Of a stretch of 64,000 nt of DNA, positions 28,292 through 52,672 are shown piece by piece (position 1 is the first letter of the stretch; each line of letters starts with the position of its first letter). A model generated the notes under the pieces. It ran no database searches. It was given only the letters and a program-made list of their open reading frames with translations, and was not told the origin of the DNA. Source of the stretch: Pyrinomonadaceae bacterium (GTDB lineage: Bacteria > Acidobacteriota > Blastocatellia > Pyrinomonadales > Pyrinomonadaceae); assembly GCA_021463165.1 (NCBI GenBank), contig JAJTWY010000010.1, positions 1-64,000 of the forward strand. The letters are read 5' to 3'. A program made the position numbers and the translations under genes.

Positions 28292-30238
28292 ATGTCACCG
28301 CTCAATGTTCACGTACCAGGCGTGAACTACCACAAGAATCTGATCTCATGCCAGGCCGCTTGTCCGGTTCATACAGATGCTCGCGGCTACGTTCGAGCGA
28401 TCGCGGAAGGTCGGTTCAGCGAGGCGTATTTGATCGCACGCGGGCCAAACCCGTTCGCTTCGATCTGCGGCCGGATCTGCGGTGCCCCCTGTGAGATCGC
28501 GTGCCGCCGCGGGAAGATCCCAAAGGTAAATGACGACGGAATGTTTGTCGGGCAGGATCGACCGATCGCGATCCGTGCGCTTAAGCGGTTTGTCTGCGAT
28601 CAGTACGGGCCCGAGGCGAGACCGGTAGACGAAGTACTCGACTCGGTCAAGGATTTCGTGCCGCCGATCGCTGCGGATTCCGAGGAGATGGCGGCTCTTT
28701 TGAGAGCGTGCATAAGCAAGGATCTGATCCCGGCTGACGGACAACGTGTTGCGATCATTGGTGCCGGCCCTGCCGGGCTATCGGCTGCACACGATCTCGC
28801 TATCCTGGGTTTCAAGCCGGTGGTTTTTGAGATAGAACCCGTCGCGGCGGGAATGCTCGCCGTCGGCGTGCCGGCGTATCGTCTACCCCGAGAGCTCATC
28901 GCGAGCGAGGTCGCGGTTATAGAAGCACTTGGGGTAGAGATACGCTGCGGTGTCGAGATCGGCCGCGATATCACGTTCGCCGAGCTGCGAAAGGATCATG
29001 CGGCGGTGATCATCGCTGTGGGAGCGAAATCCTCGCGGGAGCTCGGCCTCAAGGGTGAGGACGGGCCCGGCGTGATCGGCGGTGTCGATCTTCTTCGGGC
29101 TGTCTCGCTCGGGGAACAAGTAGAGGTCGGTGACCAGGTCGTCGTTATCGGGGGTGGGAATGTTGCGTATGACGTGGCGCGTTCGGTCGTCAGGCAGATC
29201 GCCTTTGACACGGCCCGGACCGCAGCGAGGCTGGCCGGCACAACCCACGTTCACCTTGTCTCGCTCGAAGGGGCCGAGGAGATGCCCGCCGACACGATCG
29301 AGATCGTAGAGGGCGACGAGGAAGGCATCGAGAGGAGCAATGGCTGGGGCCCGACCGAGATACTTCGGGACGACGCAGGGCGCGTTACCGGCGTCGCATT
29401 CCGGCGCTGCCTGAGCGTCTATAACGATGATCGAAAGTTTGCGCCCGTTTATGACGACGACGACACCCGGATCGTTCCGTGCGATACGGTTCTGCTAGCG
29501 GTCGGCCAGGCACCGAAACTCTCATTCCTCGATGATGGTGGAAAGGATGTAGAACGAATGCGCGGGGATTGGCTCAAGGTCGATCCGGTTACGCTGCAGA
29601 CCACCGCCGAAGGGGTTTTTGTTACCGGCGATCTCGCCCACGGAACGCGTCTGCTGATCGATGCCGTCGCCTCAGGCAAGGCAGCGGCGCGTTCCGTTTA
29701 TCAATTCCTGACCGGCCGAAAGCTGGAAAGCGAGGCAATTGAGGTTCACAAGGTACTTGAACGCTATCGGAGAGAACTCGGTTACGAATCGATCCGACGC
29801 GTTGACGTTCCGACGATCGAGCCATCCGAACGCTTAGAGCATCCCGAGAATGTCGTCGAGATCGGCTACTCGGAAGAACAGGCCATGCGCGAGGCATCGC
29901 GGTGCCTCGATTGCGGTGTGACGCCCGTCTTCGACGGGATGCGTTGCGTGTTGTGCGGCGGCTGTGCCGACGTTTGCCCGACGGAATGCCTCAAGCTGAT
30001 CTCACTCGACGCGGTCGAGTTCGACGTAGATATGAGGAGTGCATTTGACCGTGCACTTGACAACGACGCGGATCTTGCCGAGAACTCCGCGATCCTCAAG
30101 GACGAGGATCGATGTATCCGCTGCGCCCTATGCGCGATGCGATGCCCGGTCGATGCGATCTCAATGGAACGTGTGACCTTTCAGACAAATTGGAGCTGTT
30201 ATGACGACCCATCCCGGAGAGAAAAAGTCACGATTTGA
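28292..30238 (+). CDS. GltD-like FAD/NAD(P) oxidoreductase with C-terminal double [4Fe-4S] ferredoxin domain
   Basis: About 648 residues. It has an N-terminal cysteine-rich Fe-S domain (CQAACPVHT and CGRICGAPCEIACRRG) and an FAD-binding Rossmann fold (IIGAGPAGLSAAHDL). Then come an NAD(P)H fold (VVIGGGNVAYDVA) and two C-terminal ferredoxin clusters (CVLCGGCADVCP and CIRCALCAMRCP). This is the GltD/glutamate-synthase-beta plan used to feed electrons from NAD(P)H. As the first gene before Rieske and cytochrome b it could connect NAD(P)H with that complex, as described for some Rieske/b complexes of anammox bacteria. The open frame reaches 28214, but that lies inside the operator, so the ATG at 28292 is preferred; its ribosome-binding site is weak. 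The 3' end overlaps the Rieske gene by 38 bases. Confidence 0.85.
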   Translation: MSPLNVHVPGVNYHKNLISCQAACPVHTDARGYVRAIAEGRFSEAYLIARGPNPFASICGRICGAPCEIACRRGKIPKVNDDGMFVGQDRPIAIRALKRFVCDQYGPEARPVDEVLDSVKDFVPPIAADSEEMAALLRACISKDLIPADGQRVAIIGAGPAGLSAAHDLAILGFKPVVFEIEPVAAGMLAVGVPAYRLPRELIASEVAVIEALGVEIRCGVEIGRDITFAELRKDHAAVIIAVGAKSSRELGLKGEDGPGVIGGVDLLRAVSLGEQVEVGDQVVVIGGGNVAYDVARSVVRQIAFDTARTAARLAGTTHVHLVSLEGAEEMPADTIEIVEGDEEGIERSNGWGPTEILRDDAGRVTGVAFRRCLSVYNDDRKFAPVYDDDDTRIVPCDTVLLAVGQAPKLSFLDDGGKDVERMRGDWLKVDPVTLQTTAEGVFVTGDLAHGTRLLIDAVASGKAAARSVYQFLTGRKLESEAIEVHKVLERYRRELGYESIRRVDVPTIEPSERLEHPENVVEIGYSEEQAMREASRCLDCGVTPVFDGMRCVLCGGCADVCPTECLKLISLDAVEFDVDMRSAFDRALDNDADLAENSAILKDEDRCIRCALCAMRCPVDAISMERVTFQTNWSCYDDPSRREKVTI

Positions 30239-30680
30239 CCCCGACCCGATACCGCGGCGAGATTTTCTCGGCCTGGCGGCACTCGGCTCGATGGCCGCGG
30301 CCTTTGTTTTTGCAGTATTCGGAATGCTGAAGCTGCCGAAGGCGGCGGTTTCGGCGACGCTGTCCAAAAAGTTCAATGTCTCGCTTCCTGACACGCTGCT
30401 TGACGGTGAGGCTTTCATTCCACCGGGCCGGAACGTCGCGGTTTTTCGTGATGCCGAAGGCGTATATGCCATATCGACCGTGTGCACGCATCTAGGTTGT
30501 ATCGTCAAAGCGAGCGGAGCCGGATTTGACTGCCCATGCCACGGCTCAGGCTTCGAGAAGGACGGCACGGTTCGCAAAGGCCCCGCGCCAAAGCCGCTGC
30601 CTTGGCTGAAGGTCTCAAGAAATGGGTCCCTGCTCAACATTGATGAAGGAACGACCGTCAAGTCGGGGACAAGGGTGTAG
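30201..30680 (+). CDS. Rieske [2Fe-2S] protein of a cytochrome bc-type complex
   Basis: A 159-residue protein. A twin-arginine-like N-terminus (IPRRDFLGLAALG) leads into one transmembrane helix (~25-42), and the rest is a Rieske domain. The cluster motifs are CTHLGC (95-100) and CPCHGSGF (111-118), supplying Cys95, His97, Cys111 (or Cys113) and His114. It transfers electrons from quinol to a cytochrome c at the periplasmic face. The start lies 38 bases inside the preceding gene and its stop is two bases before cytochrome b. Confidence 0.93.
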   Translation: MTTHPGEKKSRFDPDPIPRRDFLGLAALGSMAAAFVFAVFGMLKLPKAAVSATLSKKFNVSLPDTLLDGEAFIPPGRNVAVFRDAEGVYAISTVCTHLGCIVKASGAGFDCPCHGSGFEKDGTVRKGPAPKPLPWLKVSRNGSLLNIDEGTTVKSGTRV

Positions 30681-30682
30681 CT

Positions 30683-32233
30683 ATGCAGGCCGACGGGAAC
30701 TACTCCGCACTTAACGAATTCTGGCATAACCTTAAAGCCATACCGCGTGAGGTCTATCGGTCAATGTTCCGCGGCGGGGCGCCAAAGACCGATCGGACCC
30801 GTTCTTCATTCGTCTTTGGCAACGTATTTTTGCACCTGCATTCTGTCCGGACCCACCTATGGTCGCTCCGATGGTCGACCACGGCCGGACTCGGGATCAT
30901 AACGACCGCGGCATTCTTCATCACGCTCGTGACCGGGGTGCTGCTGATGTTCTATTACAAGCCCTATACGGACGTCGCGTACCAGTCGATCAAGGACATC
31001 CACTTCATCGTTCCGACGGGCCGCTATATGCGCAACATCCATCGTTGGGCGGCCAACGTAATGGTCGTCGCGGTGATACTCCACATGGCGCGGGCTTTCT
31101 ATACGGCCGCCTATCGGCATCCACGCGAATTCAACTGGTTTATCGGCTGGGGCCTGCTGGTGACAACGCTTGCGTTGTCTTTCACCGGGTATCTGCTGCC
31201 GTGGGACCAGCTTGCCTATTGGGCTATCACGATCGGGGCCAACATCGCGCAGAGCCCTCGGGAGATCACGGATGCGATGGGCATCACCGAATTCATGGAT
31301 ATTGGCGGCCTGCAGCGCGAGATCCTGCTCGGCTCTGAGGTGGTCGGTGCAGAGGCACTGATACGTTTCTACTTGCTGCATGTGATGATCCTTCCGCTAG
31401 TCCTGGCAGGGCTGATGGCGGTTCATTTCTGGCGGATCCGAAAGGATGGTGGCCTCGCGAAACCGAAAGATGCGGACGAACGCGTTGCCGACGAAGCGAA
31501 AGAGTTCTATCCGGTGTTTACCGACCAGCCGGCGAAGACCTACCAGCTTGCTGCGATCGTAAAGGGCAAAACCCCGGCAGTAAACTCAGGACCTGAGCAC
31601 ACGGTCCCATCGATGCCGCACCTTTTTTACGCTGAGTTGGGCGTGCTGATGTTGACGACGCTGATCTGCGTCGGACTGGCATTCATATCGGATGCGCCGC
31701 TCAAGGAACTTGCGAATCCGCTGGTTCCAGAAAATCCGGCAAAGGCACCGTGGTATTTTCTCGGCCTACAGGAGATCGTTTCGTTCTCTGCCTTTATGGG
31801 CGGTATCGGCATCCCCATGCTGTGCATTATCGGCCTCGGGCTCATTCCATTCCTGGATCGCGAAAAGGAAGGCACGGGCGAGTGGTTTGGCGGGCCGGGC
31901 GGTTGGCGGCTTGTCAAGTGGTCGATCGCCGTTGGCTTTGTGTCGTCGATCCTCGTCGAAGCCTTTGCGATACGCTTCGGCTGGCTTCGTGAATGGTTTC
32001 CTGACATACCGCAGTTGGTGATCACTTTCGTAAATCCGGGGACCGTTATAACGGCGATCTATGCTGCGTTCTCGATCTGGGCCGTGAAGCGTTTTAACTC
32101 AACTCGAGCGGGAGCACTCGCACTTTTCACTTGTTTTCTTGCGGGCTTTATCGTGCTGACGGTGGTCGGCACATATTTCCGCGGGCCGAATTGGGACTTC
32201 TATTGGTCGCCGTCGTCGTGGCCGGGACATTGA
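30683..32233 (+). CDS. Cytochrome b (fused b6/subunit IV type) of Rieske/b complex
   Basis: A 516-residue membrane protein with at least eight predicted helices. The first haem pair is in HRWAANVMVVAVILH (13 residues between) and the second in HVMILPLVLAGLMAVH (14 between), the b6f-like spacing rather than 13/13 of bc1. The Qo-site motif usually PEWY reads APWY here (KAPWYFLGLQE). N- and C-terminal parts are joined in one chain. It should oxidise quinol and pass electrons to the Rieske and multihaem partners encoded on both sides. Confidence 0.93.
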   Translation: MQADGNYSALNEFWHNLKAIPREVYRSMFRGGAPKTDRTRSSFVFGNVFLHLHSVRTHLWSLRWSTTAGLGIITTAAFFITLVTGVLLMFYYKPYTDVAYQSIKDIHFIVPTGRYMRNIHRWAANVMVVAVILHMARAFYTAAYRHPREFNWFIGWGLLVTTLALSFTGYLLPWDQLAYWAITIGANIAQSPREITDAMGITEFMDIGGLQREILLGSEVVGAEALIRFYLLHVMILPLVLAGLMAVHFWRIRKDGGLAKPKDADERVADEAKEFYPVFTDQPAKTYQLAAIVKGKTPAVNSGPEHTVPSMPHLFYAELGVLMLTTLICVGLAFISDAPLKELANPLVPENPAKAPWYFLGLQEIVSFSAFMGGIGIPMLCIIGLGLIPFLDREKEGTGEWFGGPGGWRLVKWSIAVGFVSSILVEAFAIRFGWLREWFPDIPQLVITFVNPGTVITAIYAAFSIWAVKRFNSTRAGALALFTCFLAGFIVLTVVGTYFRGPNWDFYWSPSSWPGH

Positions 32234-32237
32234 TGCG

Positions 32238-33896
32238 ATGAATAAGAACAAATATCTATTGATGATCTCAAGCCTGGGGGTGTTTGTGCTGCTCGTCGCG
32301 GCCGCGTTTTCTGAGAACTTCCTGAAGGACTGGCACCGGATACAGGCGACCGCGACCACGGCCGACGGGCCGCTGGATGTGCGGCTGCGGCAGATCGTGA
32401 ATCCTAACCTGAATGTGACCGACCGCTGTGTCACATGCCACACCGGAATGGCCGCGGGAGAACAGATCACCTCGTCGCTTAAGGTGGGCGCGGCCCATAA
32501 GCCGGTCGTCCATTCGACTCAGGAGATGGGCTGCACAACCTGTCACGGAGGGCAGGGACAGGCGACCGAGATGGACGATGCGCATGGCAATGTGCACTTT
32601 TGGACCGAGCCGATGCTGCCTGCGAAGTACGCGTACGCGAGCTGCGGCACCTGTCACACACCGCTGAATGTCCCCAACATGCCGACGTTCGAGAACGCTC
32701 GAAAGACCTTTGAGCGGCTTGACTGCTATGCCTGTCACCGCCTCGATGGCCGCGGCGGGACAGTGCGGCCGGGCGGGGATATTACCGGAATGGAAGGTCC
32801 CGACCTGTCACACGCAGGCATCAAGGGCTACAACACGGAGTGGTATCCGGCACACATCACAAAGATGCAGCAGGCCCAGGACGGAGCTTGGAAAAACTTG
32901 TTCCGCGAGGTTAGCGACGAGGACCGGGCGGCACTCAAGATATTCCTCGATACCCAAATGGGTGCCCCGAAACTCATCGAGGCAAAGGCTCAGTTCAACA
33001 CGGTAGGCTGTGTCGGTTGCCACACGGTCGGCAGCTTTGGTGGCGACGCGGGCGTCAATCTGTCGATCTCTGGGCTGAAGGATCCTAACCAGCTCAACTT
33101 CAGCCGCGTGCCCGGCGAACGCAGTGTTGAGAACTGGATCAAACAGCATTTTCGTTCACCTGCCTCCACCGTTGCCGGTTCACAAATGCCGGTCATGGGC
33201 TTGAGTGAGGAGAAGATCGATCTGTTGACTCTGTACACACTTTCGCTTCGTCGCCGCACTCTGCCTGACATTTTCCTGCCGAAGGATCGTGTCAGGGCGA
33301 TGCGTTTTGGCTACCGTGAATTTGCCAGTGATGGGGCAACGATCTACTCGGCTGTATGCTCAGCGTGCCACGCCGAAAATGGCATGGGTACCCGCTATCC
33401 GGGGCTTGTTCCAAATCCGTCGATCGCCAACGCAGATTTCCTGTCGCTTGCCTCGGATGATTACCTTTTGGCGACGATCAAAGCCGGGCGGCCCGGGCGG
33501 CCGATGCTCGCATGGGGGGAACGCGAGAACGGCTTGAAGGACGAGGAGATCAAAGGTCTCATCGCTTATATCCGACAGCTCGGTGGCGGTGTCCAGGCTG
33601 TTCCCGACACAAAGCCACCGATATGGGCGACGGGTGACATCGGAACCGGCGATCGGCTGTTCACCGCAAACTGCTCAGGCTGCCACGGCAAAGGCGCAGT
33701 TGGCGGTGAAGGGCCTGCCCTTGCCAATCCTGCATTTCTGAAGGCAGCAACCGACACGTTTCTAGTGGGCACGATCACTAATGGCCGACGAGGTACGGTG
33801 ATGCAGGGTTTTGCCAATGGTTCGCCCACGCGGCCTGTGCTGACGCAGGCGGAGATCGAGTCGATCGTAGTTTACCTGCGGTCATTAAAAAAATAG
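32238..33896 (+). CDS. Heptahaem c-type cytochrome of the Rieske/b complex
   Basis: A 552-residue exported protein with an N-terminal transmembrane/signal segment (LLMISSLGVFVLLVAAAF). Seven CXXCH haem sites are visible: CVTCH, CTTCH, CGTCH, CYACH, CVGCH, CSACH and CSGCH. The last two lie in typical mono-haem cytochrome c domains (~355-550), the earlier five in a multihaem part. It probably accepts electrons from the Rieske protein and passes them to or from the molybdoenzyme encoded next. It starts four bases after cytochrome b. Confidence 0.9.
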   Translation: MNKNKYLLMISSLGVFVLLVAAAFSENFLKDWHRIQATATTADGPLDVRLRQIVNPNLNVTDRCVTCHTGMAAGEQITSSLKVGAAHKPVVHSTQEMGCTTCHGGQGQATEMDDAHGNVHFWTEPMLPAKYAYASCGTCHTPLNVPNMPTFENARKTFERLDCYACHRLDGRGGTVRPGGDITGMEGPDLSHAGIKGYNTEWYPAHITKMQQAQDGAWKNLFREVSDEDRAALKIFLDTQMGAPKLIEAKAQFNTVGCVGCHTVGSFGGDAGVNLSISGLKDPNQLNFSRVPGERSVENWIKQHFRSPASTVAGSQMPVMGLSEEKIDLLTLYTLSLRRRTLPDIFLPKDRVRAMRFGYREFASDGATIYSAVCSACHAENGMGTRYPGLVPNPSIANADFLSLASDDYLLATIKAGRPGRPMLAWGERENGLKDEEIKGLIAYIRQLGGGVQAVPDTKPPIWATGDIGTGDRLFTANCSGCHGKGAVGGEGPALANPAFLKAATDTFLVGTITNGRRGTVMQGFANGSPTRPVLTQAEIESIVVYLRSLKK

Positions 33897-33956: not shown

Positions 33957-36900
33957 ATGAAAAACGAACTATCGAGACGCGAGTTCATGGCAAGGATGAC
34001 GGCAGCTGGTTTTGGCGCTTTTGCTGCGTCAGCGACCAAAGCATGGGGCCTCGATGCAATCACAAATCCGTTGGCCGTTTATCCGAATCGAGATTGGGAA
34101 AACGCTTACCGTGACTTGTGGAAGTACGATTCCAGGTACACATTCACCTGCGCTCCGAACGACACGCATAACTGTTTGCTGAATGCTCATGTCCGGCAGG
34201 GAGTGATCACACGAATCGGCCCGACGATGAAGTACGGTGAGGCGGTCGATCTGCTTGGAAATGGTACGTCGCATCGTTGGGATCCGCGTGTTTGCCAGAA
34301 GGGACTGGCACTGACACGGCGGTTCTACGGCGACCGGCGCGTAAACGGCACGATGGTTCGAGCCGGATTCAAACGATGGTATGAAGACGGTTTTCCACGC
34401 GGCAAGGACGGCAGGCCGGATGAAAGCTACATGAACCGCGGCCGCGACGAATGGGTTCGTATGTCGCATGAAGAGGGGGCGACGATCGTCGCGGCGGCCT
34501 TAAAAAATATTGCTGAGACCTATACCGGCGAAGAAGGGAAGAAAAAGCTAAAAGAGCAGCATTATGACGAGGCTGTTATCGAGGCCACCCAGGGTGTTGG
34601 GACTCAGGTAATGAAGTTTCGCGGCGGTATGCCGCTCCTCGGTATCACCCGCGTGTTCGGGATGTACCGCATGGCCAACTCGATGGCGCTTCTCGACAGC
34701 AAGATCCGCGGTGTGGGACCCGACCAGGCAATGGGCGCGAAGGGGTTTGATAACTACTCGTGGCACACCGACCTGCCACCCGGTCATACCATGGTTACGG
34801 GCCAGCAGACCGTTGAATTTGACCTCAATTCCGTCGAGCAGGCGAAAACGCTCGTCGTTTGGGGAATGAACTGGATAACGACCAAGATGCCCGATGCTCA
34901 CTGGCTGACGGAGGCACGGATGAAAGGTACAAAGATCGTCGTTATCGCCTGCGAGTACTCGGCGACCGCGACCAAGGGAGACGAGGTCGTTGTCGTCCGT
35001 CCGGGAACGACGCCGGCCGTGGCTCTCGGCTTCGCCAATGTCATAATGCGCGAAAAGTTGTACGACGAAGACTATGTCCGGCGATGGACCGATATGCCGA
35101 TCCTCGTCAGGATGGATACGCTCAAGTATTTGAAGGCGTCAGAGGTCTTTGGCGGAGGCCCGGCCGAGTTGAAACAGACATTTATCGTCAAGGAAGGCGA
35201 GAAAGAGCCGCCACCGATACAACAGGACATCAAGAACGTCGTGCCTGAGAAGCTTCGGAACGAATGGGGCGATTATGTCATCTGGGATACGAAAACCGGA
35301 GCTCCGGTCGTACTTACAAGGGACGATGTCGGCGATAACTCGAAGGCCGGTAACGCCCAACTCGAAGGCGTTGTTGAGGTTACCCTTGCCGACGGCAGTA
35401 AGGTTCGATGCCGTCCGGTCTTTGATCTGGTCAAAGAGTATGCTGCCCATTTCGATCCCAAGACCGTCGAAGAACTTACTTGGGCACCTGCGGCAGCGAT
35501 AGAGAAGCTGGCTCGGCATTTTGCCAAGGAACCCGGCACGACACTGTTTGCCCTCGGCATGGGGCCGAACCAGTTCTTTAACAGCGACAATAAGGACCGC
35601 GATGTATTCCTTCTCGCGTCGCTGACAGGCAATGTTGGCAAGATCGGCGGCAATGTTGGCTCCTATGCCGGCAATTACCGTACGGCGCTTTTCAACGGCT
35701 CGCCACAGTGGATCGCCGAGGATCCGTTCGACATCGAACTCGATCCTGCAAAACCTGCGCGGCCGAAACAATACTGGAGGGCCGAGTCGGCTCATTATTA
35801 TAACCACGAGGATCATCCGCTTCGCGTTGGCAACCGGCTGCTGACAGGCAAAACGCACATGCCCTGTCCAACCAAGTCACTCTGGTTCGCCAACGCCAAT
35901 TCGATCCTCGGCAACGTGAAATGGCACTACAATATGGTCGTCAACGCGCTGCCGAGGATCGAAATGATCGCCGTCAACGAATGGTGGTGGTCAACTTCAT
36001 GCGAATGGGCCGACGTCGTTTTTGGAGTCGACTCGTGGGCCGAGCTCAAGCATCCTGATATGACGGCTTCGGTGACGAACCCGTTCTTGCTGGTGTTTCC
36101 CAAGACGCCCATTGAGCGGATTTTTAACACGATGGGGGACATCGAAGTGTTCGCCACCGTCGCATCGAAGCTTGCCGAACTTACGGGCGATCAACGATTC
36201 AACGACTATTGGAAATACGTCCGGGAACACAGGACCGACGTCTATCTACAGCGGATCCTCGACAATTCTACGAACACCAAGGGGTACAACTTCAACGAAC
36301 TCCATGAAAAGGCACTCAACGGCGTGCCGGCATTGATCAATAGCCGCACGACGCCCAAGAATGTTGGCTACGACCAACTTGAGGACAATACGCCATGGTA
36401 CACCAAGAGCGGCCGGCTCGAATTCTATCGCGAGGAGGATGAGTTCATCGAGGCTGGTGAGAACCTTCCGGTTCACCGCGAACCCGTCGATTCGACGTTC
36501 TACGAGCCAAACATCATCATTTCCGCCCCTCACGAGGCCCTGCGGCCTGCTCAGCCCGAGGATTACGGCGTTAAGCGTGACGACCTCTCGTGTGAGACTC
36601 GATGCGGCCGCAATGTTGTTTACACATGGGCCGAGGCAAAGACGAAACCGCATCCGCTCATCAAGAACGATTACAAGTTCATCTTTCACACGCCGAAGTA
36701 CCGACACGGTGTTCACACGATGCCGATCGACACGGACATGAACGCCGTTCTATTTGGCCCGTTTGGGGACATCTATCGGCACGACAAACGAATGCCGTTC
36801 GTAAATGAAGGCTATGTCGATATCAATCCGGCGGACGCTCAGGAGCTTGGTATTAATGATGGCGACTATGTTTGGATCGACGGTGACCCGGAGGATCGAC

Positions 36901-37394
36901 CGTTCCGCGGTTGGCAGAATGACAAGAAGAACTACGAGTTTACCCGGCTGATGTGCCGTGCCCGATACTATCCGGGCACACCCCGCGGCGTGACGCGAAT
37001 GTGGTTCAACATGTACGGGACCACCCCGGGTTCTTTCCAGGGACAAAAGGAGAGAAAGGACGGCTTGGCGAAGAATCCACGGACCAATTATCAGGCGATG
37101 TTCCGCTCCGGCTCGCACCAGTCGGCGACCCGCGGCTGGCTTAAGCCGACCTGGATGACCGATTCACTTGTCCGCAAAGGGATGTATGGCCAAGGGATGG
37201 GCAAAGGTTTCGCCCCCGACATCCATTGTCCGACCGGCGCACCACGCGAGGCGTTCGTCAAGATCACCAAGGCTGAGCCCGGCGGTATCGGCGACGAGCC
37301 GCTATGGCGTCCGGTTAAGCTCGGCATAAGGCCGCGGAACGAGAGCGATGCGATGAAGAGGTACCTCGCCGGTGAGTTCATAAAGAAGAAATAA
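33957..37394 (+). CDS. Type II DMSO-reductase-family molybdoenzyme alpha subunit (NxrA/NarG-like)
   Basis: An 1,145-residue catalytic subunit binding Mo-bis-MGD. A twin-arginine signal (SRREFMARM, residues 6-14) shows it is exported folded to the periplasm. The FS0 iron-sulphur region reads CAPNDTHNC with C65, D69 and C73, then C113; the Asp sits where a cysteine is usual. The Mo-ligand aspartate is Asp272 in [10 protein letters not shown], which aligns with NarG WYCDLPPAS. The motif set is that of the Nitrospira/anammox NxrA and EbdA/PcrA clade rather than cytoplasmic NarG. Reaction direction (nitrate reduction or nitrite oxidation) or another oxyanion substrate cannot be read from sequence; nitrate reduction is favoured by the NO-stress context. 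It has a ribosome-binding site GAAAGGAA. Confidence 0.9.
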
Positions 37395-37865
37395 ATGGAC
37401 GTACTGAAACTACATCTATTGCTGAATTATTATCCCGCGATCGGTTTTGTGATCGGCACGGTAGTTCTGGCGGCAGGCTTTCTGTTCAGGAACACCGTCC
37501 GCAAGCGCCTTGCTCTTAAGATCCTCGCCGTGATGGCCCTGTTCACGATCGGCGTTGTTTTCACCGGAGAGTTTGCAGGCCAGGCTGTGGAGCCAACTCT
37601 CAATGGCTCGCGGGCCGAGGCACTTTTGTCACACAAGATCGCGGCCACTGCGGCGTTTGCGGCGGTACTGATCACAGGCATTGCCTCGGTCGTCGGTATC
37701 GTCCGGGGGAAGCGTGATGCTTACCGTCCGCGGACGACGTATGTTGTGGTCCTGATATTCAGCCTTCTCGCATCGATACTTTTGATTAACACGATATTCA
37801 AGGGCCGACAGGTTAAATGGGCATTCGGCCAAACACACACGGAGAATAAACTATGGCACGCGTAA
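37395..37865 (+). CDS. Small four-helix membrane protein in the molybdoenzyme operon
   Basis: A 156-residue protein with four predicted transmembrane helices, beginning [16 protein letters not shown]. This start is typical of DUF2231-like proteins next to respiratory operons. It directly follows the alpha subunit stop and overlaps the beta-subunit gene by 13 bases, so it is translated with them. No haem or metal motif beyond a few histidines is evident. It could anchor the complex; function unknown. Confidence 0.75.
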
Positions 37866-38995
37866 ACAACTGGCAGCTCGGCCGCGAGATGTCCTACTGG
37901 TATCCCGAGAGCCGCCCTGAAAAACAATTCGCAGCGGTCTTTGACACGAACAAATGCATTGCGTGCCAGACCTGCACGCTGGCGTGTAAGACAACCTGGA
38001 CCAGCGGCAAGGGCCAGGAATATATGCTTTGGAACAATGTCGAGACCAAGCCATACGGCTTTTATCCACTCGCGTGGGACCTTAACCTGCTTGAGATGCT
38101 CGATGGACAGCAATGGAGCGAGCGTGACGGCAAGACGGTTTACGAGGGCAGTACGATATTCGAATCAGCCCCGGCCGGCGAGCGGGTTCTCGGCTGGCGT
38201 CCAAGCGATGAGGACTATGCATATCCGAACGTCGGGGAGGACGATTGTTCCGGCGGCGTGGATGGCGGAGCTAGCCTCGAAGGTACACACGACATGGCTT
38301 GGTTTTATTATCTGGCCAGGATATGCAACCACTGCACTTACCCAGCCTGTCTCGCATCGTGCCCTCGAGGCTCGATCTACAAGCGCCCGGAGGATGGCAT
38401 TGTGCTGGTGGATCAGGGCCGATGCCGTGGCTATCAGGAGTGCGTGCGCGGCTGTCCGTACAAAAAGGTATTCTTTAACCCTATCACATCGACATCAGAG
38501 AAGTGCATAGCGTGTTTTCCGAAGATAGAGCAGGGCCTTGCTCCGCAGTGTTTCGAGAACTGCATAGGCAAGATCCGAATGGCTGGCTTCCTCAATACAC
38601 CCGACAAAGCCCAGGCTGATAACCCTCTCGATTATCTCGTCCACATCAAGAAGGTTGCACTACCATTGTTCCCGCAGTTCGGGCTTGAGCCAAATGTTTA
38701 CTACATTCCGCCGATCCACGTACCAACGACGTTCACGCGGCAGATGTTCGGCCCGGGAGTCGACAAGGCGGTCGAGGTCTATCGCAATGCGCCGAACGAC
38801 CCTGACCTGACCAGCTTGCTAGGCCTGTTTGGTTCAACCGCACAGATCACACGGCGATGGAAACGGGTCGGCGACAAGGCGATCGGGATGGACGAGCATG
38901 GCAAGGAATTGGTCAGCGTTCCGTTTCGCGAGCCAGTGCATATCCGCCCGGCTTACGACAAGCTCTATCAGATCACGCGCACAAACTGCCCGTAG
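37853..38995 (+). CDS. Iron-sulphur beta subunit of the molybdoenzyme (NxrB/NarH-like)
   Basis: A 380-residue electron-transfer subunit. Four cluster motifs are present: [44 protein letters not shown] and [16 protein letters not shown] with a later CFENC. In the third motif a tyrosine stands where a fourth cysteine would be, so this cluster is probably [3Fe-4S], as in NarH where tryptophan is found. It should carry electrons between the Mo site and the haem-bearing gamma subunit. There is no signal peptide; it is expected to hitch-hike through TAT with the alpha subunit. Confidence 0.93.
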
Positions 38996-39008: not shown

Positions 39009-39851
39009 ATGCGACTGTTAATATTCTTAATTCTACTAACACTGCTTGTTAGCGCGTGCGGCCACGTGCAAACGCCCACTGCCGAATTGAATGTTGCACA
39101 GGTCAAGGAGGTCACGACCGACCCCGATGCTGCCGTGTGGCGTGACGTGCCGCTGCATATCTCAAAGATGATTCCACAGGATCTTGTTGACCCGAGGGTC
39201 ATGGAACCTTCGACGTCAGAAGTGCAGGTCAAGGCGATCACCGATGGAACGCAGATCGCATTCCGATTGGAGTGGATCGACCCGACACAGAACGATGTGC
39301 CCGGGCCGAAGCACTTCCTCGATGGATGTGCTGTTCAGATCCCCGCACGGATCGATCCCAATGTTCCGGCTCCGCAGATGGGCGAAGCCGGCAAGACAGT
39401 CGAGATCGCGTTCTGGCGCGCCGACTGGCAGGCGATAGTTGATGGAAGGGCGACCGACGACATTCGGACCATTTATCCGAACGCCACCGTCGATCACTAT
39501 CCGTCGCAGGCAAGATCACTAGAGGGAAATCCGCAAGCCCTGGCTGAGGCCGCGGCGAGATATTCTCCCGCACGGGCTGTCGGAAATCGTCGAGGGGGGC
39601 CGCGCGAACAACCTGTCGAAGATATGCTGGCCGAAGGGCCGGGAACCTTGTCGCCGGCGGCCGATACGACATCCAAGGGAAAGGGCATAAAGACAAAGAC
39701 CGGTTGGTCAGTGGTGATAGCGCGTCAGGTCCCCGCCGGCTTTTCGCCAGGGACACCGACGCAGTCGGCTTTTGCGGTATGGGAGGCGGCTCACGGCGAG
39801 GTCGGGGCGCGTAAGATGCGCACCGGCTGGGTGCCAATGATCTTGAAGTGA
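39009..39851 (+). CDS. Lipoprotein gamma subunit (EbdC/NxrC-like haem-b domain)
   Basis: A 280-residue protein with a lipobox (LLTLLVSAC) at the start. The remainder fits the ethylbenzene-dehydrogenase-related haem b domain that serves as gamma subunit of periplasmic type II molybdoenzymes. The ATG at 39009 precedes a strong signal and is preceded by minus-13 GGGAGG; the open frame extends to 38829 but that overlaps the beta subunit. The stop overlaps the next start by one base. Haem ligands cannot be assigned with certainty. Confidence 0.82.
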   Translation: MRLLIFLILLTLLVSACGHVQTPTAELNVAQVKEVTTDPDAAVWRDVPLHISKMIPQDLVDPRVMEPSTSEVQVKAITDGTQIAFRLEWIDPTQNDVPGPKHFLDGCAVQIPARIDPNVPAPQMGEAGKTVEIAFWRADWQAIVDGRATDDIRTIYPNATVDHYPSQARSLEGNPQALAEAAARYSPARAVGNRRGGPREQPVEDMLAEGPGTLSPAADTTSKGKGIKTKTGWSVVIARQVPAGFSPGTPTQSAFAVWEAAHGEVGARKMRTGWVPMILK

Positions 39852-40342
39852 TGACGATCTCACTTACCAGCCTGATGTCGGTTCATCGCGAGCTCGATGC
39901 GTTGTTTCTCTATCATCAACGGGCTCTGCTGCATCTCGATTCGGCACTTGCCTTGACGGCACTGCAGCGGTACGAGGACGAGCTGTTGCGGCATATGAAA
40001 GACGAGGAGGATCTTCTGCTGCCTATCTACTCGCAGCGAAGTGAGTATCCGGCGGTCGGGGCCCCGAAGCTCTTCATCGATGAGCACGAGAAAATGCGTG
40101 CACACATCGAGGTACTAAAGGATGCGACCGCAGATTTGGCGGATGCCGACGACATCGAAAGATCGGTGTTGCGTATCCTTGGGCATGAAGCATTCTACCT
40201 TCGCCTGTCCAGCCATCACGATAACCGAGAGGGAACTTATCTTTACCCGCTGCTCGATGCCGTGCTTTCGGCGGATGAGAGGCTCGATCTGCTTGATCGT
40301 GTCTGGCAGGGATCGGAACTTCGCCAAACTGCCAACATTTGA
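39851..40342 (+). CDS. Hemerythrin HHE-domain protein
   Basis: A 163-residue four-helix protein with the hemerythrin pattern: His in MSVHRELDAL, HMKDEEDLLLP, IDEHEKMRAH and SSHHDNREGTYLYP. It would hold a di-iron centre and bind O2 or NO. The protein is shorter than RIC and lacks its N-terminal cysteines. Its position in the nitrate operon suggests a role in NO or O2 buffering, or maturation of the molybdoenzyme. Confidence 0.85.
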   Translation: MTISLTSLMSVHRELDALFLYHQRALLHLDSALALTALQRYEDELLRHMKDEEDLLLPIYSQRSEYPAVGAPKLFIDEHEKMRAHIEVLKDATADLADADDIERSVLRILGHEAFYLRLSSHHDNREGTYLYPLLDAVLSADERLDLLDRVWQGSELRQTANI

Positions 40343-40354: not shown

Positions 40355-40987
40355 ATGAAAGACGCTGATAAACTGCTGAACGAGGCCGCCGAATGGCGGC
40401 TCCTAAGCCTGCTTTTTGACTGCCCCAAAGGCGATTGGTTTCAGCAGGTTTCGCTGCTTGGGGAACAGGTGAGTGACAAGCGCCTCTCAAAGGCTGCACG
40501 AGCCGCCCAGACCGAGGCGACCGAAGGATTTTTTCATTCCGTTTTCGGTCCCGGCGGTCCGGCACCGGGTCGTGAAGTCAGCTACAGGGGCTGGGTCGAG
40601 CCAGGCCAGATGCTGTCGGAACTATCAGCGTATTATGATGCGTTCGGATTCAAGACATCGACCAATGAGGTGCCGGATCACGTCGCGGTCGAGTCCGGTT
40701 TTATTGGCTATTTGCGCTTGAAAGAACTCTACGCTCGTGAGTGCGGCGATGATGAGAACGCCGAGATCGCCGCTGATGCGGCAAGCTCGTTCATCGAAGA
40801 TCACCTGTCGAAATATGCCGAAAAGCTTAACTCGCTCCTCAGTCAATCCGGGGTCGAATATCTCGAGGCGGCTGGCGAGGCTCTGTTTGAGCGCGTCGGG
40901 CCCGACAAAGACAAACTGACTGAAAAGTTTCTGCCGGTTCTGAACGATGACGAAGAGACAATGTTCGAGTGCGGCGTCGCCGCCTGA
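40355..40987 (+). CDS. TorD/NarJ-like molybdoenzyme chaperone
   Basis: A 210-residue helical protein. It resembles TorD-family chaperones, which bind the TAT signal of a Mo enzyme and hold it until the cofactor is inserted. Typical are the N-terminal RLLSLLFDCP, the central YDAFGF, and PDHVAVESGFIGYL. It is the last gene of the operon and converges on the decarboxylase gene with adjacent stop codons (40987/40988). It is likely specific for the alpha subunit encoded here. Confidence 0.85.
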   Translation: MKDADKLLNEAAEWRLLSLLFDCPKGDWFQQVSLLGEQVSDKRLSKAARAAQTEATEGFFHSVFGPGGPAPGREVSYRGWVEPGQMLSELSAYYDAFGFKTSTNEVPDHVAVESGFIGYLRLKELYARECGDDENAEIAADAASSFIEDHLSKYAEKLNSLLSQSGVEYLEAAGEALFERVGPDKDKLTEKFLPVLNDDEETMFECGVAA

Positions 40988-43217: not shown

Positions 43218-43949
43218 CTACTCCACGAGCAATGGGAACGTCTTTTGCTCAAGTTCAACAGCTCGCGGGAACAAGATATTGTTCTCGAGGTGAATATGCT
43301 GGTGCAGGTCGGCTTCAAGGTGCGCGAGCCTATGGTAGAGAGCTGTAAAGCTCGGACAGGCACCTTCGGGAAGCGTGTAATCGTTGGTTATCGCACGCAT
43401 CTCCTTTAGAATATCGCCAACGGCCTCGTGCTCAATACGCATCATCCTGACCGGATTCTGGACGGTGCCAAAAGGTGGAATGGCTGCCGACATGTGCTGA
43501 GATTCCAGCTTTTTAACGTATGGGAATAACACCATCTCTTCTTTCATCATGTGCGGACCGAGATCATCCACCAACAGCGCGAAAAGCTCTTTGAGTCTCA
43601 GAAGATAGTCGTAATGATCGCCGTGCCGTGTCGCGACCTTGGCCATCAGCGGCGTAAGTTGGCCCATCTCATCACGGGTAAAGACGTGATGGGCATCTAC
43701 GATGTGATCGATCAGTTCCCCCAGCGATGCGTCGGCGACCCAGTCGTGCTCGCGGTCACCGAGGGTTTCAATAACACCGTCGAGCTTTTCCATCACGACC
43801 TCGGGTTCTGCACCCACATTGCGGCATGCCTCATCAAAAAGCGTGTTGCCGTGACAGCAATAGTCGATCTTAAACTCCTCAAACACTCGAGTCGTGATCG
43901 GCATCTCAAGGGCTATCTCACGAACCGTTTTTGTCTGCAAATTCTGCAT
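43218..43949 (-). CDS. Iron-sulphur-cluster repair di-iron protein (RIC; YtfE/ScdA)
   Basis: A 243-residue protein with the RIC build: an N-terminal ScdA domain with FKIDYCCHGNTLFDEAC (Cys30, Cys31) and a hemerythrin-like C-terminal part carrying histidines in IVDAHHVFTR, HMMKEEMVLFP, IEHEAVGD and HQHIHLENNILFPR. RIC proteins restore Fe-S clusters damaged by nitric oxide or peroxide. It begins at 43949 with minus-strand GGAGGT as ribosome-binding site. A Crp/Fnr-type operator is centred about 67 bases upstream of the ATG. Confidence 0.93.
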   Translation of the reverse strand: MQNLQTKTVREIALEMPITTRVFEEFKIDYCCHGNTLFDEACRNVGAEPEVVMEKLDGVIETLGDREHDWVADASLGELIDHIVDAHHVFTRDEMGQLTPLMAKVATRHGDHYDYLLRLKELFALLVDDLGPHMMKEEMVLFPYVKKLESQHMSAAIPPFGTVQNPVRMMRIEHEAVGDILKEMRAITNDYTLPEGACPSFTALYHRLAHLEADLHQHIHLENNILFPRAVELEQKTFPLLVE

Positions 43950-44525: not shown

Positions 44526-45179
44526 TCATCGAACCAGAGTTTCCAGTTGCTTTGTGTCTTCCACGAAGATCTTGCCCCTGACGATCTTTAGATAGCCGCG
44601 ATCAGCCAGCTTCCTGATCGAGCGGATCGTCGTTTCCAGGGTCAGGCCTGCCATTTCGGCGATGTCCTGTCTTCGATGAGTGATCTTCGTAACATGGCCG
44701 TTGCCGGAGCCGGTCAACTGAAGCAGAACGGACGCAACACGATGTTCCGCGCTCGGCGTCGCAAGGATCTGGACGGTATCTGTTCTGGCACGGAGCAGGC
44801 CGCACATCCGCTTCATTATCGCACCGGAAAATGCCGTCGACGTTTCCATCAACTTCAGGAATTTGTCACGCGGGATCATCAGGATCCGGCTTTCTACCAT
44901 GGCGATCGCCGTGGCAGGAAAGCGCTTTCCGTCCAGCGCCGGCGGTATCGCGAAGATCTCGCCGGTCGCGAACATGCCGAGAATGACCTCCTTTCCCACC
45001 TCCGGAAAGCGCACCATCTTGATCCGCCCCGAAACAACGATCGGAAGGAACGTCGCGTCGTCGCCCTCGGCAAACACCTGCTGATTCGGGCCAAACGTCC
45101 TAACTATCCCATTTTCATGGATCTCCCGATTCAATTCCGGATCGAATTCGAGCAATGGTATTCCATTCGCGATCAGCAT
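44526..45179 (-). CDS. Crp/Fnr-family transcription regulator (DNR-like)
   Basis: A ~217-residue regulator with an N-terminal cyclic-nucleotide-binding-like domain (FGPNQQVFAEGDDATFLPIVVSGRIKMVR) and a C-terminal winged helix (THRRQDIAEMAGLTLETTIRSIRKLADRGYLKI). The recognition helix keeps the Glu and Arg used to read GA in Crp and Fnr half-sites. There is no N-terminal cysteine set, so it is not an Fe-S Fnr; DNR-type NO sensing through haem is plausible but unproved. It probably binds the TATGAT-type dyads listed here. The ATG at 45179 is chosen; a longer frame to 45230 runs through one of these dyads. Confidence 0.88.
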   Translation of the reverse strand: MLIANGIPLLEFDPELNREIHENGIVRTFGPNQQVFAEGDDATFLPIVVSGRIKMVRFPEVGKEVILGMFATGEIFAIPPALDGKRFPATAIAMVESRILMIPRDKFLKLMETSTAFSGAIMKRMCGLLRARTDTVQILATPSAEHRVASVLLQLTGSGNGHVTKITHRRQDIAEMAGLTLETTIRSIRKLADRGYLKIVRGKIFVEDTKQLETLVR

Positions 45180-45215
45180 ATCGAATTGCCTAATACAATG
45201 AAATCTACGCGTCCG

Positions 45216-45231
45216 TATGATACAAGTCATA
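45216..45231. promoter_or_regulatory. Crp/Fnr-type operator between the regulator and porin genes
   Basis: TATGATACAAGTCATA has perfect TATGA/TCATA arms. The centre is 44 bases before the regulator ATG and 72 before the porin ATG. On the plus strand a class II start would fall near 45265, 31 bases before the porin. On the other side it overlaps the regulator promoter and may mediate autoregulation. Confidence 0.65.
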
Positions 45232-47018: not shown

Positions 47019-47267
47019 TTAGGCACCGGCGTAGGTTGCCCAAGTAGATTCGAGCATACGGATGTAAAAATAATCGAAGTCCATATCCTCCTGACACGTC
47101 GGGCAGGAGCCTATGTGTAAGTCAGCCCTCTCCTTTTCCTGCTCGGTTAGAGCCGAGCGGGACGCGAAAACGAGTTCTCCGTCTTCGGGATTGATACAAG
47201 GTGAGTCAGCGTAATCGTCAACCTCGCCCATACCCGGCAGCCAATTACCACTGTCAACGTGATTCAT
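47019..47267 (-). CDS. Small zinc-finger-like protein
   Basis: An 82-residue acidic protein. The pattern HIGSCPTCQ (HxxxCxxC) resembles the anti-sigma zinc finger (zf-HC2). The rest is rich in Asp and Glu. It overlaps the preceding CHC2 protein gene by four bases and lies before a terminator, so it is co-translated. Function unknown; a regulator of the replication or transfer genes is possible. Confidence 0.6.
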   Translation of the reverse strand: MNHVDSGNWLPGMGEVDDYADSPCINPEDGELVFASRSALTEQEKERADLHIGSCPTCQEDMDFDYFYIRMLESTWATYAGA

Positions 47268-47905
47268 ACGCGACCCCCTGAATCGGCTCTTACCAACTCC
47301 TCGATCTGACCGAGGACGGCGATGTAGGCCGACTTCTCAAATGACGACATTGAGTTGTTCGCCGCTCGTAGTTCGATCCATTCGGCGAGCGGATCATAGA
47401 TGCCGTATCGGTCATCCCTATCCCCTACTCGGCTGGTTTCGGTTTCTTCTCGTTGCAGATCACTCGACTGTTCGTCTCGGATTTCGCCTCTTGGCTCGTC
47501 CCGCCGTTCGTCTTGCTTGTCCGACTGCGGTGGAGCCGGTTCGTCCCGTTGCTGGTTGTCCCGGCGTGGACCAGATTTCATTTCGATCCCGTACCAAGCA
47601 GCAAGCTTCAAACCGGCCTCCCGGAGTGAGCAACTTTCCATGACCGAGACAAGCTCGATTACATCGCCGCCCTTCTTGCCGCGGCGACCTTTGGCACAGG
47701 CTGTCGAGTGACATATCCAAACTTGCTTTACGACGTTTACCGAAAATGACTTGGAATCGTCGTCTCCCGCCGGATGCGACAGGAGCGGGCATCTTGCTCG
47801 CCGGTGTGATCCATTTACACGGCTCAGCGAAACTCCGAATCTGCCCGCCACTTCCTCCAAAGAAATTCCGGCCTTGACCGACTTAAAATCAACATAGTCC
47901 CCCAT
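47264..47905 (-). CDS. CHC2 zinc-finger protein (DnaG-primase-type finger without catalytic domain)
   Basis: A 213-residue protein. Residues ~10-100 form a DnaG-type CHC2 zinc finger with CPLLSH and WICHSTACAKGRRGKKGGDVIELV. No TOPRIM domain follows; instead there is a hydrophilic, repeat-rich linker (many RDEP/RDDR units) and a short helical tail. In plasmids and integrative elements similar free CHC2 proteins accompany replication. It overlaps the next gene by four bases and is divergent from the iterons and rep gene. Confidence 0.75.
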   Translation of the reverse strand: MGDYVDFKSVKAGISLEEVAGRFGVSLSRVNGSHRRARCPLLSHPAGDDDSKSFSVNVVKQVWICHSTACAKGRRGKKGGDVIELVSVMESCSLREAGLKLAAWYGIEMKSGPRRDNQQRDEPAPPQSDKQDERRDEPRGEIRDEQSSDLQREETETSRVGDRDDRYGIYDPLAEWIELRAANNSMSSFEKSAYIAVLGQIEELVRADSGGRV

Positions 47906-48052
47906 TCGTTCTTACCTCCATGTTTTGTTGTTTCGAACTCTGGGCGGAGCCTATCAGCCGGGCGGACGTTGGCAAGAGATCGCCGAGATGAAGCCGCGAT
48001 AAGCCAGCCATGAAATCTTAATAAAGCGGAAATGAAATCTTTGTGAAAAACG

Positions 48053-48244
48053 GTGCACTTGCGGTGAGGAGCCGCTTGGTGAACTCGCGGTAAGCTTGGT
48101 GCGCTTGTGGTAAAAGGCTTGGTGCTCATGAAGTGAACTTGGTGCTTTTGCGGTGAAAACTAGGTGCACTTGCGGTGAGCGGTTGGTGCTCTTGAAGTGA
48201 AATCTTGGTGCACTCGAAGTGAGAATTTGGTGCTCTTGCGGTAA
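48053..48244 (+). repeat. Iteron array, nine direct repeats (replication origin)
   Basis: Nine copies of a 16-base unit, consensus GGTGCNCTTGCGGTGA, lie at 48053, 48079, 48099, 48122, 48142, 48164, 48185, 48207 and 48229. Eight have the same first bases GGTGC; copy two reads GGTGA. Spacing is 20-23 bases (26 once), two turns of DNA helix, as in plasmid origins that bind a Rep protein. They sit 242 bases before the rep gene. A further direct repeat, TCTCTAAC at 48317 and 48338, is 21 bases apart and may belong to the rep promoter or a Rep operator. Confidence 0.9.
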
Positions 48245-48485
48245 CGAGATTTCAGAAAAAGCTAGGAGCCGCAAGGCCAAAAATCCGAAATGACCAGCCC
48301 TAAGTATTTTTAAGTTTCTCTAACGGTTCTCAAAGTATCTCTAACACACGGTAGGGGTGTGATCGAGAGAACACGACCCGACGAGACGACCGACCGAATC
48401 GGACGAACGCCGACCGGACGATCATGGAGTTGACGGCGGCTCCGCGCTATCATCAGGCGGTCCCACGCCAACCATCCCACCCGAC

Positions 48486-50135
48486 ATGGAAGAAACGGCG
48501 AACGCCGAACTCTCACACTCGACCGCCACCGTCGCCGAAACGCCGCCGACGGAAAAAGCCCCGGCTCCGATCCGGCGGGTTCGGACCGAACTCAATCTTG
48601 AACAGTGGTCGATTTGGCTTCCGGCTAAGTCGAACCGCGATCCGGCCCCGCGTGTTTTGACTCGCGAGATCAAGGGCGAGGATGGAAGCAAGACCGTGGC
48701 CGAGGTCGAGATCACGGCTTCACGGAAAGGCACTTTGACGACGGAGGATCAACGAACGTACTACGCCCTTGTCGAGCATCACCAGAGAAACGACAACAAC
48801 CGAGACGGCGTTGTTTATTTCTCGCTTCGCGGGATCGCGAAGTCCCTAACTAAGCGTTGGGGATCGGGAGCGATCGACACGATCACAGACTCACTGACCC
48901 GGCTTCGAGCAAACACGATCGTTTGGAGGAATTCCTACCACGACGGAGCGACCGGTAAGGCCGCCGAAGAGCTTGGTTTCTTCAACATCATCACCGATCT
49001 AAAAATCGTCACCGCCAAACGAGACGGCCACGTAACGCGGGCCGAGGGCTATTTCAAACTCAATGATGCGATCATCGCGAATCTTGAGCAGAGCCACACC
49101 AAGCCCGTGCTTCTCGATGTCGTGCTTAAATTTCGAAGCGAGATCGCCCAAATTCTTTACACGCAGTTAGATCGCATTCTGTCGAAGGACATTGTTTCCT
49201 ACGAACGCAAGACCAAGGAACTCTTTGCCGACATGGGACTTGAGGGTCGGAAGTACATCCATCCGGGCGGACGGAAACAACAGCTTCTACCAGCTATCGC
49301 CGAACTTGAAGGTGCCCCATTGTCGAACGGATTCGTGATCCAGTCCGTCAGCCTCGAACGCACCGCCGACCAGAAGGACTACAAGATCGTCGTTCGCCGT
49401 GGCCGCACACGGGTACGAAACGGCACCGGAGAGCCGATTTCCAGTGAGAGTCAGGTCAAACCCGAGCCCTCAAAGGAACGGGCCGGAGAAGGGCGTACAG
49501 AGCCGAATCCAAACCAACCCCCCAAAACCCCACCGGAAAGCCCAGCAGACGGAGACAGCCACGGGGTGCCAAACGGGAAGGTGGCCGCAAGACCGGAAGC
49601 CAACGCCGGGGCCGATCTTCTTGTGTATTTCTACAAGACCTTTTTCGGCACCGAGGCCCCGACCGTCCAGACCAGCCGGAAACACCGCGACCTGGCCGAC
49701 TGGATGGTTGCCAGCCACGGCGAGGACATGAGCCGGTACATTGTGGACTTTGCGAAAGCCGAGGCTGAGAAAACTCGGTTCCGCGTTGCCACGTTCGGAG
49801 CCATAGCTAATTACGTTGACCGGGCGGTTGCGCACCACACGCTTGAACAGGCCGAACTCAAGAAGGCACAGGAAGCCAGCCGCGAAGCGGCACGGCAGGC
49901 GAGGGCGGATCAGATCAGGGAAGAGCGGGAGCAACTTGGCTACCGCCTGTTCCGGGAGCTACCGGATGAGGATCGAAAGGCACTGATCGGCGAGGCACGG
50001 GCGACACTGATCACATCCGAGAAATGGCGAACCGCCGATTTCTCGGCAGACATCAACAAGCTCATTTTCGAGAAAGAGGCGGAGGGACTCGTTCGGCATG
50101 CTCTACTTGCCGGATACACCGACAACACGAACTGA
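48486..50135 (+). CDS. Plasmid replication initiator (Rep, RPA/TrfA-like)
   Basis: A 549-residue protein. Residues ~25-310 resemble plasmid initiators of the winged-helix type: YFSLRGIAKSLTKRWGSGAIDTITDSLTRLRANTIVW, VLKFRSEIAQILYTQLDRIL, then a helix-turn-helix-like LLPAIAELEG. A proline-rich linker (315-365) leads to a helical C-terminal domain with a coiled coil (460-500). It follows the nine iterons and should bind them to open the origin. The first ATG at 48486 is the best start; no ribosome-binding site is obvious. Family naming is by resemblance. Confidence 0.82.
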   Translation: MEETANAELSHSTATVAETPPTEKAPAPIRRVRTELNLEQWSIWLPAKSNRDPAPRVLTREIKGEDGSKTVAEVEITASRKGTLTTEDQRTYYALVEHHQRNDNNRDGVVYFSLRGIAKSLTKRWGSGAIDTITDSLTRLRANTIVWRNSYHDGATGKAAEELGFFNIITDLKIVTAKRDGHVTRAEGYFKLNDAIIANLEQSHTKPVLLDVVLKFRSEIAQILYTQLDRILSKDIVSYERKTKELFADMGLEGRKYIHPGGRKQQLLPAIAELEGAPLSNGFVIQSVSLERTADQKDYKIVVRRGRTRVRNGTGEPISSESQVKPEPSKERAGEGRTEPNPNQPPKTPPESPADGDSHGVPNGKVAARPEANAGADLLVYFYKTFFGTEAPTVQTSRKHRDLADWMVASHGEDMSRYIVDFAKAEAEKTRFRVATFGAIANYVDRAVAHHTLEQAELKKAQEASREAARQARADQIREEREQLGYRLFRELPDEDRKALIGEARATLITSEKWRTADFSADINKLIFEKEAEGLVRHALLAGYTDNTN

Positions 50136-50245
50136 CCCCTTTTTTATTTACGCGCTACTATTGCAGCGACCGTTGCCGCCGTTGCAACCGCTCAACTAGC
50201 CCTTGCTGTCTGAACCGACCGCAAGAAACAAGCACTTTACGCCTC

Positions 50246-50450: not shown

Positions 50451-50506
50451 GGACTACGTCACCACGCCAACGACGCAACATAACTCGACACCCAACCCCG
50501 ATTCCT

Positions 50507-52624: not shown

Positions 52625-52672
52625 TCCCCGAAACACGCTACAATCAATGCTTTTGCACAGGAAGGGAGGGTC

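Follow-up and report, generated by a model that had tools for sequence, protein, structure and literature searches.

A conserved operon of a Pyrinomonadaceae bacterium encodes a Rieske/cytochrome b-flavoprotein unit with an NXR-type molybdoenzyme: a candidate menaquinol:nitrate complex exchanging electrons with NAD(H)

We analyzed a stretch of 64,000 nucleotides (the window) from contig JAJTWY010000010.1 of a soil-type Pyrinomonadaceae bacterium (Acidobacteriota; assembly GCA_021463165.1) and identified a ten-gene operon in which a flavoprotein, a Rieske protein, a fused cytochrome b and a heptahaem cytochrome c are encoded with a molybdoenzyme of the nitrite oxidoreductase (NXR) type. The products most likely form a menaquinol:nitrate complex that, by its low-potential branch, exchanges electrons with nicotinamide adenine dinucleotide, NAD(H), in one direction or the other. 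With somewhat less than even confidence, we propose from the genes a single respiratory assembly that would couple quinol-driven nitrate reduction on the outside to electron bifurcation to NAD+ through the flavoprotein.

Layout and conservation of the operon

An earlier note on this DNA had placed the flavoprotein, the Rieske protein, the fused cytochrome b and the seven-haem cytochrome in one operon. We confirmed the four open reading frames on the forward strand, with their coordinates and motifs, at intergenic distances of -38, +2 and +4 nt. The operon then runs on from the cytochrome c gene to 40987 without a real gap:

28292-30238, +, Nfn/GltD-like flavin adenine dinucleotide (FAD) protein (Pfam; PDB 9bov, NfnABC, by sequence and fold; 16 conserved cysteines; LE motif)
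30201-30680, +, Rieske 2Fe-2S protein with an RR-motif N-terminal anchor and CPCHGSGF (PF00355; PDB 9rk4/9rk3 of Kuenenia)
30683-32233, +, fused cytochrome b, b6 part with four transmembrane (TM) helices and subunit-IV-like part with five (Pfam, motif reading, ligand alignment, model)
32238-33896, +, membrane-anchored heptahaem cytochrome c (seven CxxCH)
33957-37394, +, NxrA/NarG-like catalytic subunit, molybdenum-bis(molybdopterin guanine dinucleotide) type, with a twin-arginine translocation (Tat) signal (7b04_B over the full length, E 4.8e-258; invariant columns)
37395-37865, +, small four-TM DUF2231/DUF998-like membrane protein (weak Pfam match)
37853-38995, +, NxrB/NarH-like four-cluster Fe-S subunit (7b04_A, E 5e-115)
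39009-39851, +, NxrC-like haem b subunit, EB_dh family, predicted lipoprotein (LVSAC) (PF09459; 7b04_C)
39848-40342, +, hemerythrin HHE protein (PF01814)
40355-40987, +, NarJ/TorD-like chaperone of type II dimethyl sulfoxide reductases (PF02613, TIGR03482)

The order flavoprotein-Rieske-cytochrome b-cytochrome c is kept, as far as contigs reach, in 16 of 16 relatives from the genus and class (cytochrome b identity at least 76%), and NxrA follows with NxrB and NxrC wherever those contigs are long enough. From a scan of 84,980 species by NxrA alignment we retained the best 80 loci, which were then searched by tblastn with the ten window proteins. Among these 80 loci, an eight-gene core occurs in Acidobacteriota, Planctomycetota, Myxococcota and two metagenome-assembled genomes (MAGs) labelled Acidimicrobiia. 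All four upstream genes are present in 38 of the 41 supported NxrA-clade loci that have at least 6 kb of upstream sequence, the exceptions being L095, L107 and L111; the Rieske/b-flavoprotein unit is missing beside NxrA relatives of approximately 57-61% identity outside the clade, those of Thioploca and Thiomargarita among them. As the same four-gene order is kept both in close relatives and across phyla, chance is excluded as its cause. The composition, judged rare in the earlier note, is widespread across phyla, and the adjacent molybdoenzyme, as that note did not foresee, is of NXR type and belongs to the same conserved module.

The Rieske/cytochrome b-flavoprotein unit and its relatives

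The Rieske protein (30201-30680) carries the motifs CTHLGC and CPCHG, and its best PDB matches are both Kuenenia Rieske proteins, 9rk4 and 9rk3. Its CPCHGSGF motif is that of Kustd1480, whose potential was measured at +335 mV (PMC12954380), and fits a high-potential branch ending at nitrate; other module members have SRF, SKF and similar triplets instead of SGF. The cytochrome b (516 amino acids) has haem ligands H120/H134 and H233/H248, with 13 and 14 residues between them as in cytochrome b6f. We found neither a c_i/c_N haem cysteine in the alignment nor a cytochrome f in Pfam searches of the window proteins, so that the label 'b6f-like' given to it previously is right for the spacing and wrong for the c_N-haem cysteine. 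That cysteine, located before the first TM helix, is present in 6 of 6 anammox rows and replaced by G, W, Y or F in 68 of 68 others. The Qo motif APWY at positions 355-358, once thought peculiar, also occurs in both Kuenenia complexes (PAKAPWYFLGLQE), and we rejected it as a special feature. In an AlphaFold2 model (mean pLDDT 77), the b6 part is spanned by four TM helices and the C-terminal part by five; a subunit-IV part with five rather than three helices was also modelled for the Kuenenia complexes (PMC12954380). The cytochrome c has exactly seven CxxCH motifs and one N-terminal anchor, and seven haems are found in 34 of 36 modules with a fused cytochrome b. With a cytochrome b query, no cytochrome b other than that of the operon was detected in the genome; thus, the complex appears to be the sole Rieske/b complex of this organism.

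The start of the flavoprotein gene (28292; stop at 30238) was set by comparison with homologues. Its product has N-terminal Fer4_20 cysteines followed by FAD and NAD-type Rossmann folds, a GAGPAG motif and two C-terminal CxxCxxCxxxCP (4Fe-4S) motifs; having neither signal nor TM helix, it is predicted to be cytoplasmic. By fold and sequence the nearest solved proteins are the bifurcating transhydrogenases NfnABC/StnABC (best PDB match 9bov, NfnABC), and Kuste4570 was likewise reported to be closest to NfnABC (PMC12954380). Sixteen cysteines are kept in all Rieske/b-associated flavoproteins, except for one position in the Kustd1483 type. In a tree of 65 rows, all Rieske/b-associated flavoproteins of Acidobacteriota, Planctomycetota and Myxococcota group together (Shimodaira-Hasegawa-like approximate likelihood ratio test, 98%), with the two anammox types outside it. 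A freestanding paralogue (L217) and a PreT-like protein beside PreA (L218), both from the same genome, stand apart on long branches, because of which the exact root is uncertain. These two were the soluble references, true glutamate-synthase GltD not being included. The claim that the flavoprotein is part of the unit, which was to fall if the protein grouped with soluble GltD and was not conserved beside the Rieske gene, thus held: the gene is conserved beside the Rieske gene and its product groups apart from both soluble paralogues.

The nucleotide-binding region reads VYRR in the aligned anammox and soluble PreT-type homologues, which we take to be a signature of the phosphorylated form, NADP. 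All aligned acidobacterial, planctomycete and myxococcal Rieske/b flavoproteins have LE and lack the NADP-type YRR of the anammox complexes, and in every aligned flavoprotein of the module and of two sister complexes the LE is preceded by an insertion of 20-40 residues. In a model of the flavoprotein, the Glu of LE, which is E326 when counted from the start at 28292, comes after strand 2 of the second Rossmann fold; by the Rossmann-fold rule, such a Glu in place of YRR points to NAD(H). We predict from these residues that the operon flavoprotein uses NAD(H) rather than NADP(H).

The Kuenenia genome was recognized by its Rieske sequence, which matches that of 9rk4 at 100% identity, and we read both of its complexes, Kustd1480-1485 and Kuste4569-4574 (PMC12954380; L206 and L205 here). 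They share with the module a Rieske protein, a b6-like cytochrome b with 13/14 spacing, APWY and a five-TM subunit-IV part, a multihaem cytochrome c and an Nfn-like flavoprotein, all encoded together, as well as the Fe-S cysteines leading toward FAD and the His of a proposed bridging haem. They differ in that the c_N cysteine is restricted to anammox, the cytochrome b is fused only in the module, the flavoprotein has the NADP-type YRR in Kuenenia but LE with an insertion of approximately 20 residues in the module, and the partner is an NXR-like enzyme in the module operon but HAO-like or none in anammox. The anammox rows also fall outside the module clade in both the flavoprotein and cytochrome b trees. 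The kinship with anammox Rieske/b-NAD(P) complexes noticed earlier is borne out by the Rieske matches and the side-by-side comparison.

In the cytochrome b tree (74 rows), the module and two sister complexes form one clade. Loci L045-L054 and L064 (for example L045:4892-10352), from relatives that lack the NXR module, encode a sister flavoprotein-Rieske-cytochrome b-pentahaem complex in which W stands at the c_N position and F replaces H53. Its Rieske and cytochrome b genes often flank a DUF2231-like gene, approximately 30% related to the one for the small membrane protein that lies between nxrA and nxrB in the window; because this related gene sits inside the sister complex, the small membrane protein (37395-37865) may be a subunit of the complex. 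In L211 (G374:10405-15733), a planctomycete complex of Rieske/b and flavoprotein that is sister to the fused module type is followed by sensor kinase-like and response regulator-like genes in place of NxrABC. A third type (L041, L042, L044, L062) has the order Rieske-cytochrome b-heptahaem c, with the flavoprotein gene approximately 3 kb further downstream, and a COX1-family gene lies near the complex in L062 and L063. The divergent modules L101, L104, L106, L114 and L115 have a cytochrome b outside the two sister complexes and an NxrA basal in the module clade, which suggests that the NXR link may be ancestral to these complexes. An Rrf2-family regulator gene lies directly upstream of the flavoprotein gene in nine module loci outside the genus (L102:3872-4381 and eight others); the window has no such gene there and a Crp/Fnr gene downstream instead.

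The NXR-type enzyme and the direction of the nitrate reaction

Kuenenia NXR (7b04) is the best solved homologue of each of the A, B and C subunits. The FS0 ligands of the NxrA-like protein (C65, D69, C73 and C113; 3Cys/1Asp), its substrate Asn (N68) and its Mo ligand (D272) are invariant with Kuenenia, where the roles of these residues have been described (PMC8387239); the Tat-exported A, the B subunit and the EB_dh-type C are also alike. The module differs in its dedicated Rieske/b complex, in an identity to Kuenenia NxrA of 39%, outside the approximately 60% range among known periplasmic NXRs, and in forming a separate clade near Thioploca and Thiomargarita with many uncharacterized members, in a tree with Kuenenia as outgroup and no characterized Nitrospira or Nitrospina sequence.

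Nitrate reduction and nitrite oxidation cannot be separated by sequence alone, but the genome context favours nitrate reduction. Family searches for genome-wide traits found NrfA and NrfH in the same genome, outside the operon. Within the genus, 10 of the 16 genomes that carry the module have nrfA, versus 5 of the 25 that lack the module (Fisher p 0.009, phylogeny ignored). Canonical NarG occurs in 8 of the 25 genomes without the module, one case having been verified as NarG/NarH over the cut-off, versus one partial match among the 16 with it (p 0.066, phylogeny ignored). Genus members without the module (L213, G018:C6) have what looks like a replacement for it, canonical cytoplasmic NarGH with a c-type cytochrome and an Rrf2-like regulator encoded alongside. 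Across the 41 genomes we found no RuBisCO (other routes of CO2 fixation were not searched for) and no NirK over the cut-off, and qNor-like proteins of 750 amino acids showed no association with the module (p 0.54). A hemerythrin gene belongs to the operon, and genes that suit a nitric oxide (NO)-stress context adjoin it; the following neighbours are also adjacent in locus L065:

42387-43211, -, YwiC-like membrane protein (PF14256)
43218-43949, -, RIC/ScdA-type Fe-S repair protein, NO stress (sequence; a homologue matches ScdA_N and hemerythrin)
44526-45230, -, Crp/Fnr-family regulator

Farther downstream, at 47267-64000 of the window, genes judged by eye resemble a mobile element (primase-like, replication-relaxation-like, DUF87-like ATPase). 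Elsewhere in the genome (L216, G000:C5), an assimilatory-type NasC-like molybdoenzyme is clustered with Rieske and Fe-S proteins.

Haloarchaeal nar operons couple a Rieske/b complex to an outside-facing NarGH, with antimycin sensitivity (PMC4683180, PMC2483277). By description, narBC-narGH resembles the module in having Rieske and cytochrome b upstream of NarGH in one operon; unlike the module, neither a flavoprotein nor a multihaem cytochrome c is reported for it (PMC2483277). The Caldithrix Nap locus also combines Rieske/b genes with a periplasmic nitrate reductase, but that enzyme is of Nap type and a flavoprotein is not reported (PMC5317091). By analogy, the module may combine the working of the anammox Rieske/b-NAD(P) complexes with that of the haloarchaeal Rieske/b-NarGH operon. 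We regard it as a variant joining two known kinds, because it shares most features of the anammox complexes yet lacks their c_N cysteine and NADP motif, and its NxrA lies outside the 60% range. In the open-access literature (subscription papers and preprints were outside the search) we found no description of a Rieske/b-flavoprotein-NXR operon; NXR-type genes in such MAGs have been described there without coupling to such a complex (PMC10732223, PMC6050957).

Proposed electron paths and their meaning

We infer that the encoded proteins associate physically. Menaquinol, which we assume the organism uses, would be oxidized at the outer (Qp) site of the Rieske/cytochrome b. The high-potential electron would pass from the Rieske protein through the heptahaem cytochrome c, the haem b of NxrC and the Fe-S chain of NxrB to the Mo of NxrA, where nitrate would be reduced to nitrite in the periplasm; NrfHA could then reduce nitrite to ammonium. 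The low-potential electron would pass from the b haems through a bridging haem at H51, in place of the c_N haem, to the flavoprotein, where it would follow the Fe-S chain to FAD and reduce NAD+. This would be electron bifurcation, and the reverse path, with NADH as input, is equally allowed thermodynamically. With E0' values of approximately -70 to -80 mV for menaquinone, -320 mV for NAD and +430 mV for nitrate/nitrite (PMC12954380, PMC4683180), one electron gains approximately 0.50 V and the other costs approximately 0.25 V, and bifurcation to NAD+ is thus allowed. The more general idea of a widespread electron-bifurcating nitrate reductase, in which the Q-cycle electron is returned to NADH rather than to quinone, we consider possible but more doubtful than the assembly proposed for this organism.

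Several points weigh against nitrate reduction with bifurcation. H51, which corresponds to His43 of Kuste4571, the proposed ligand of a bridging b haem, is invariant in all aligned cytochromes b, even where the flank of the complex holds no flavoprotein gene. It is therefore no proof of a haem bridge, and we rejected it as a marker of flavoprotein-bearing complexes; its invariance is compatible with a path to the flavoprotein without being specific for one. Six of the 16 module genomes show no nrfA, both association tests take no account of phylogeny, and enzymes of the NXR type can run both ways (PMC8387239). The genome encodes complex I (NuoF), and with no RuBisCO found there is no obvious demand for additional NADH. 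The presence of NuoF also led us to reject the flavoprotein as a substitute for a missing NADH module of complex I.

The main rival keeps the same assembly and nitrate reduction and makes the flavoprotein an entry port for NADH, giving an NADH/menaquinol:nitrate oxidoreductase. Every step would be downhill for electrons of NADH that pass the Fe-S clusters and then the b haems on their way to quinone, LE in place of YRR predicts the catabolic nucleotide NAD(H), unlike in the NADP-type anammox proteins, and the genus lacks RuBisCO. Against this rival, which we judge rather unlikely, complex I already offers an energy-conserving entry for NADH, and the opposite direction was proposed for the anammox relatives (PMC12954380).

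Nitrite oxidation, with electrons entering the heptahaem cytochrome and the Rieske/b complex running in reverse toward quinone and NAD+ (reverse electron flow), appears improbable. The best solved homologue is an NXR, a related NXR/NAR clade includes the enzyme of Nitrotoga (PMC6050957), NXR-type enzymes can work in both directions, and the genome has a COX1-family, aa3-type oxidase candidate. These points are countered by the low identity to Kuenenia NxrA, the absence from the operon of genes conserved around the NXR of nitrite oxidizers (PMC3578206), the lack of RuBisCO, and the presence of nrfHA and NO-stress neighbours.

We give least credence to a reading in which a Rieske/b complex with an ordinary Q cycle supplies a nitrate reductase and the flavoprotein is a soluble enzyme that is merely co-transcribed: enzymes like GltD are common and the cysteine motifs of the freestanding paralogue L217 are nearly the same, but adjacency and clade are kept across phyla and in three Rieske/b complex types, and co-migration has been reported for a Kuenenia complex (PMC12954380).

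Direct exchange of electrons between Rieske/cytochrome b and NAD(P) was proposed for anammox bacteria (PMC12954380). The same architecture, with an obvious high-potential partner, occurs in many non-anammox bacteria, some of them in genera with isolates, which makes this exchange testable. We know of no genetic tools for anammox bacteria; module-bearing genera with isolates include Paludibaculum, Aridibacter and Anaeromyxobacter. A bifurcating nitrate reductase, if it exists, would by analogy supply an exergonic partner reaction for Kustd1480-1485-like complexes, for which no proposal exists. The finding also bears on how to read the many genes of soil and sediment metagenomes that are annotated as 'NxrA': those of this clade come with a quinol-oxidizing complex and, in the genus, with an ammonium-forming nitrite reductase, which suggests nitrate reduction and not nitrite oxidation. 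In these bacteria, nitrate respiration may exchange electrons directly with the NADH pool.

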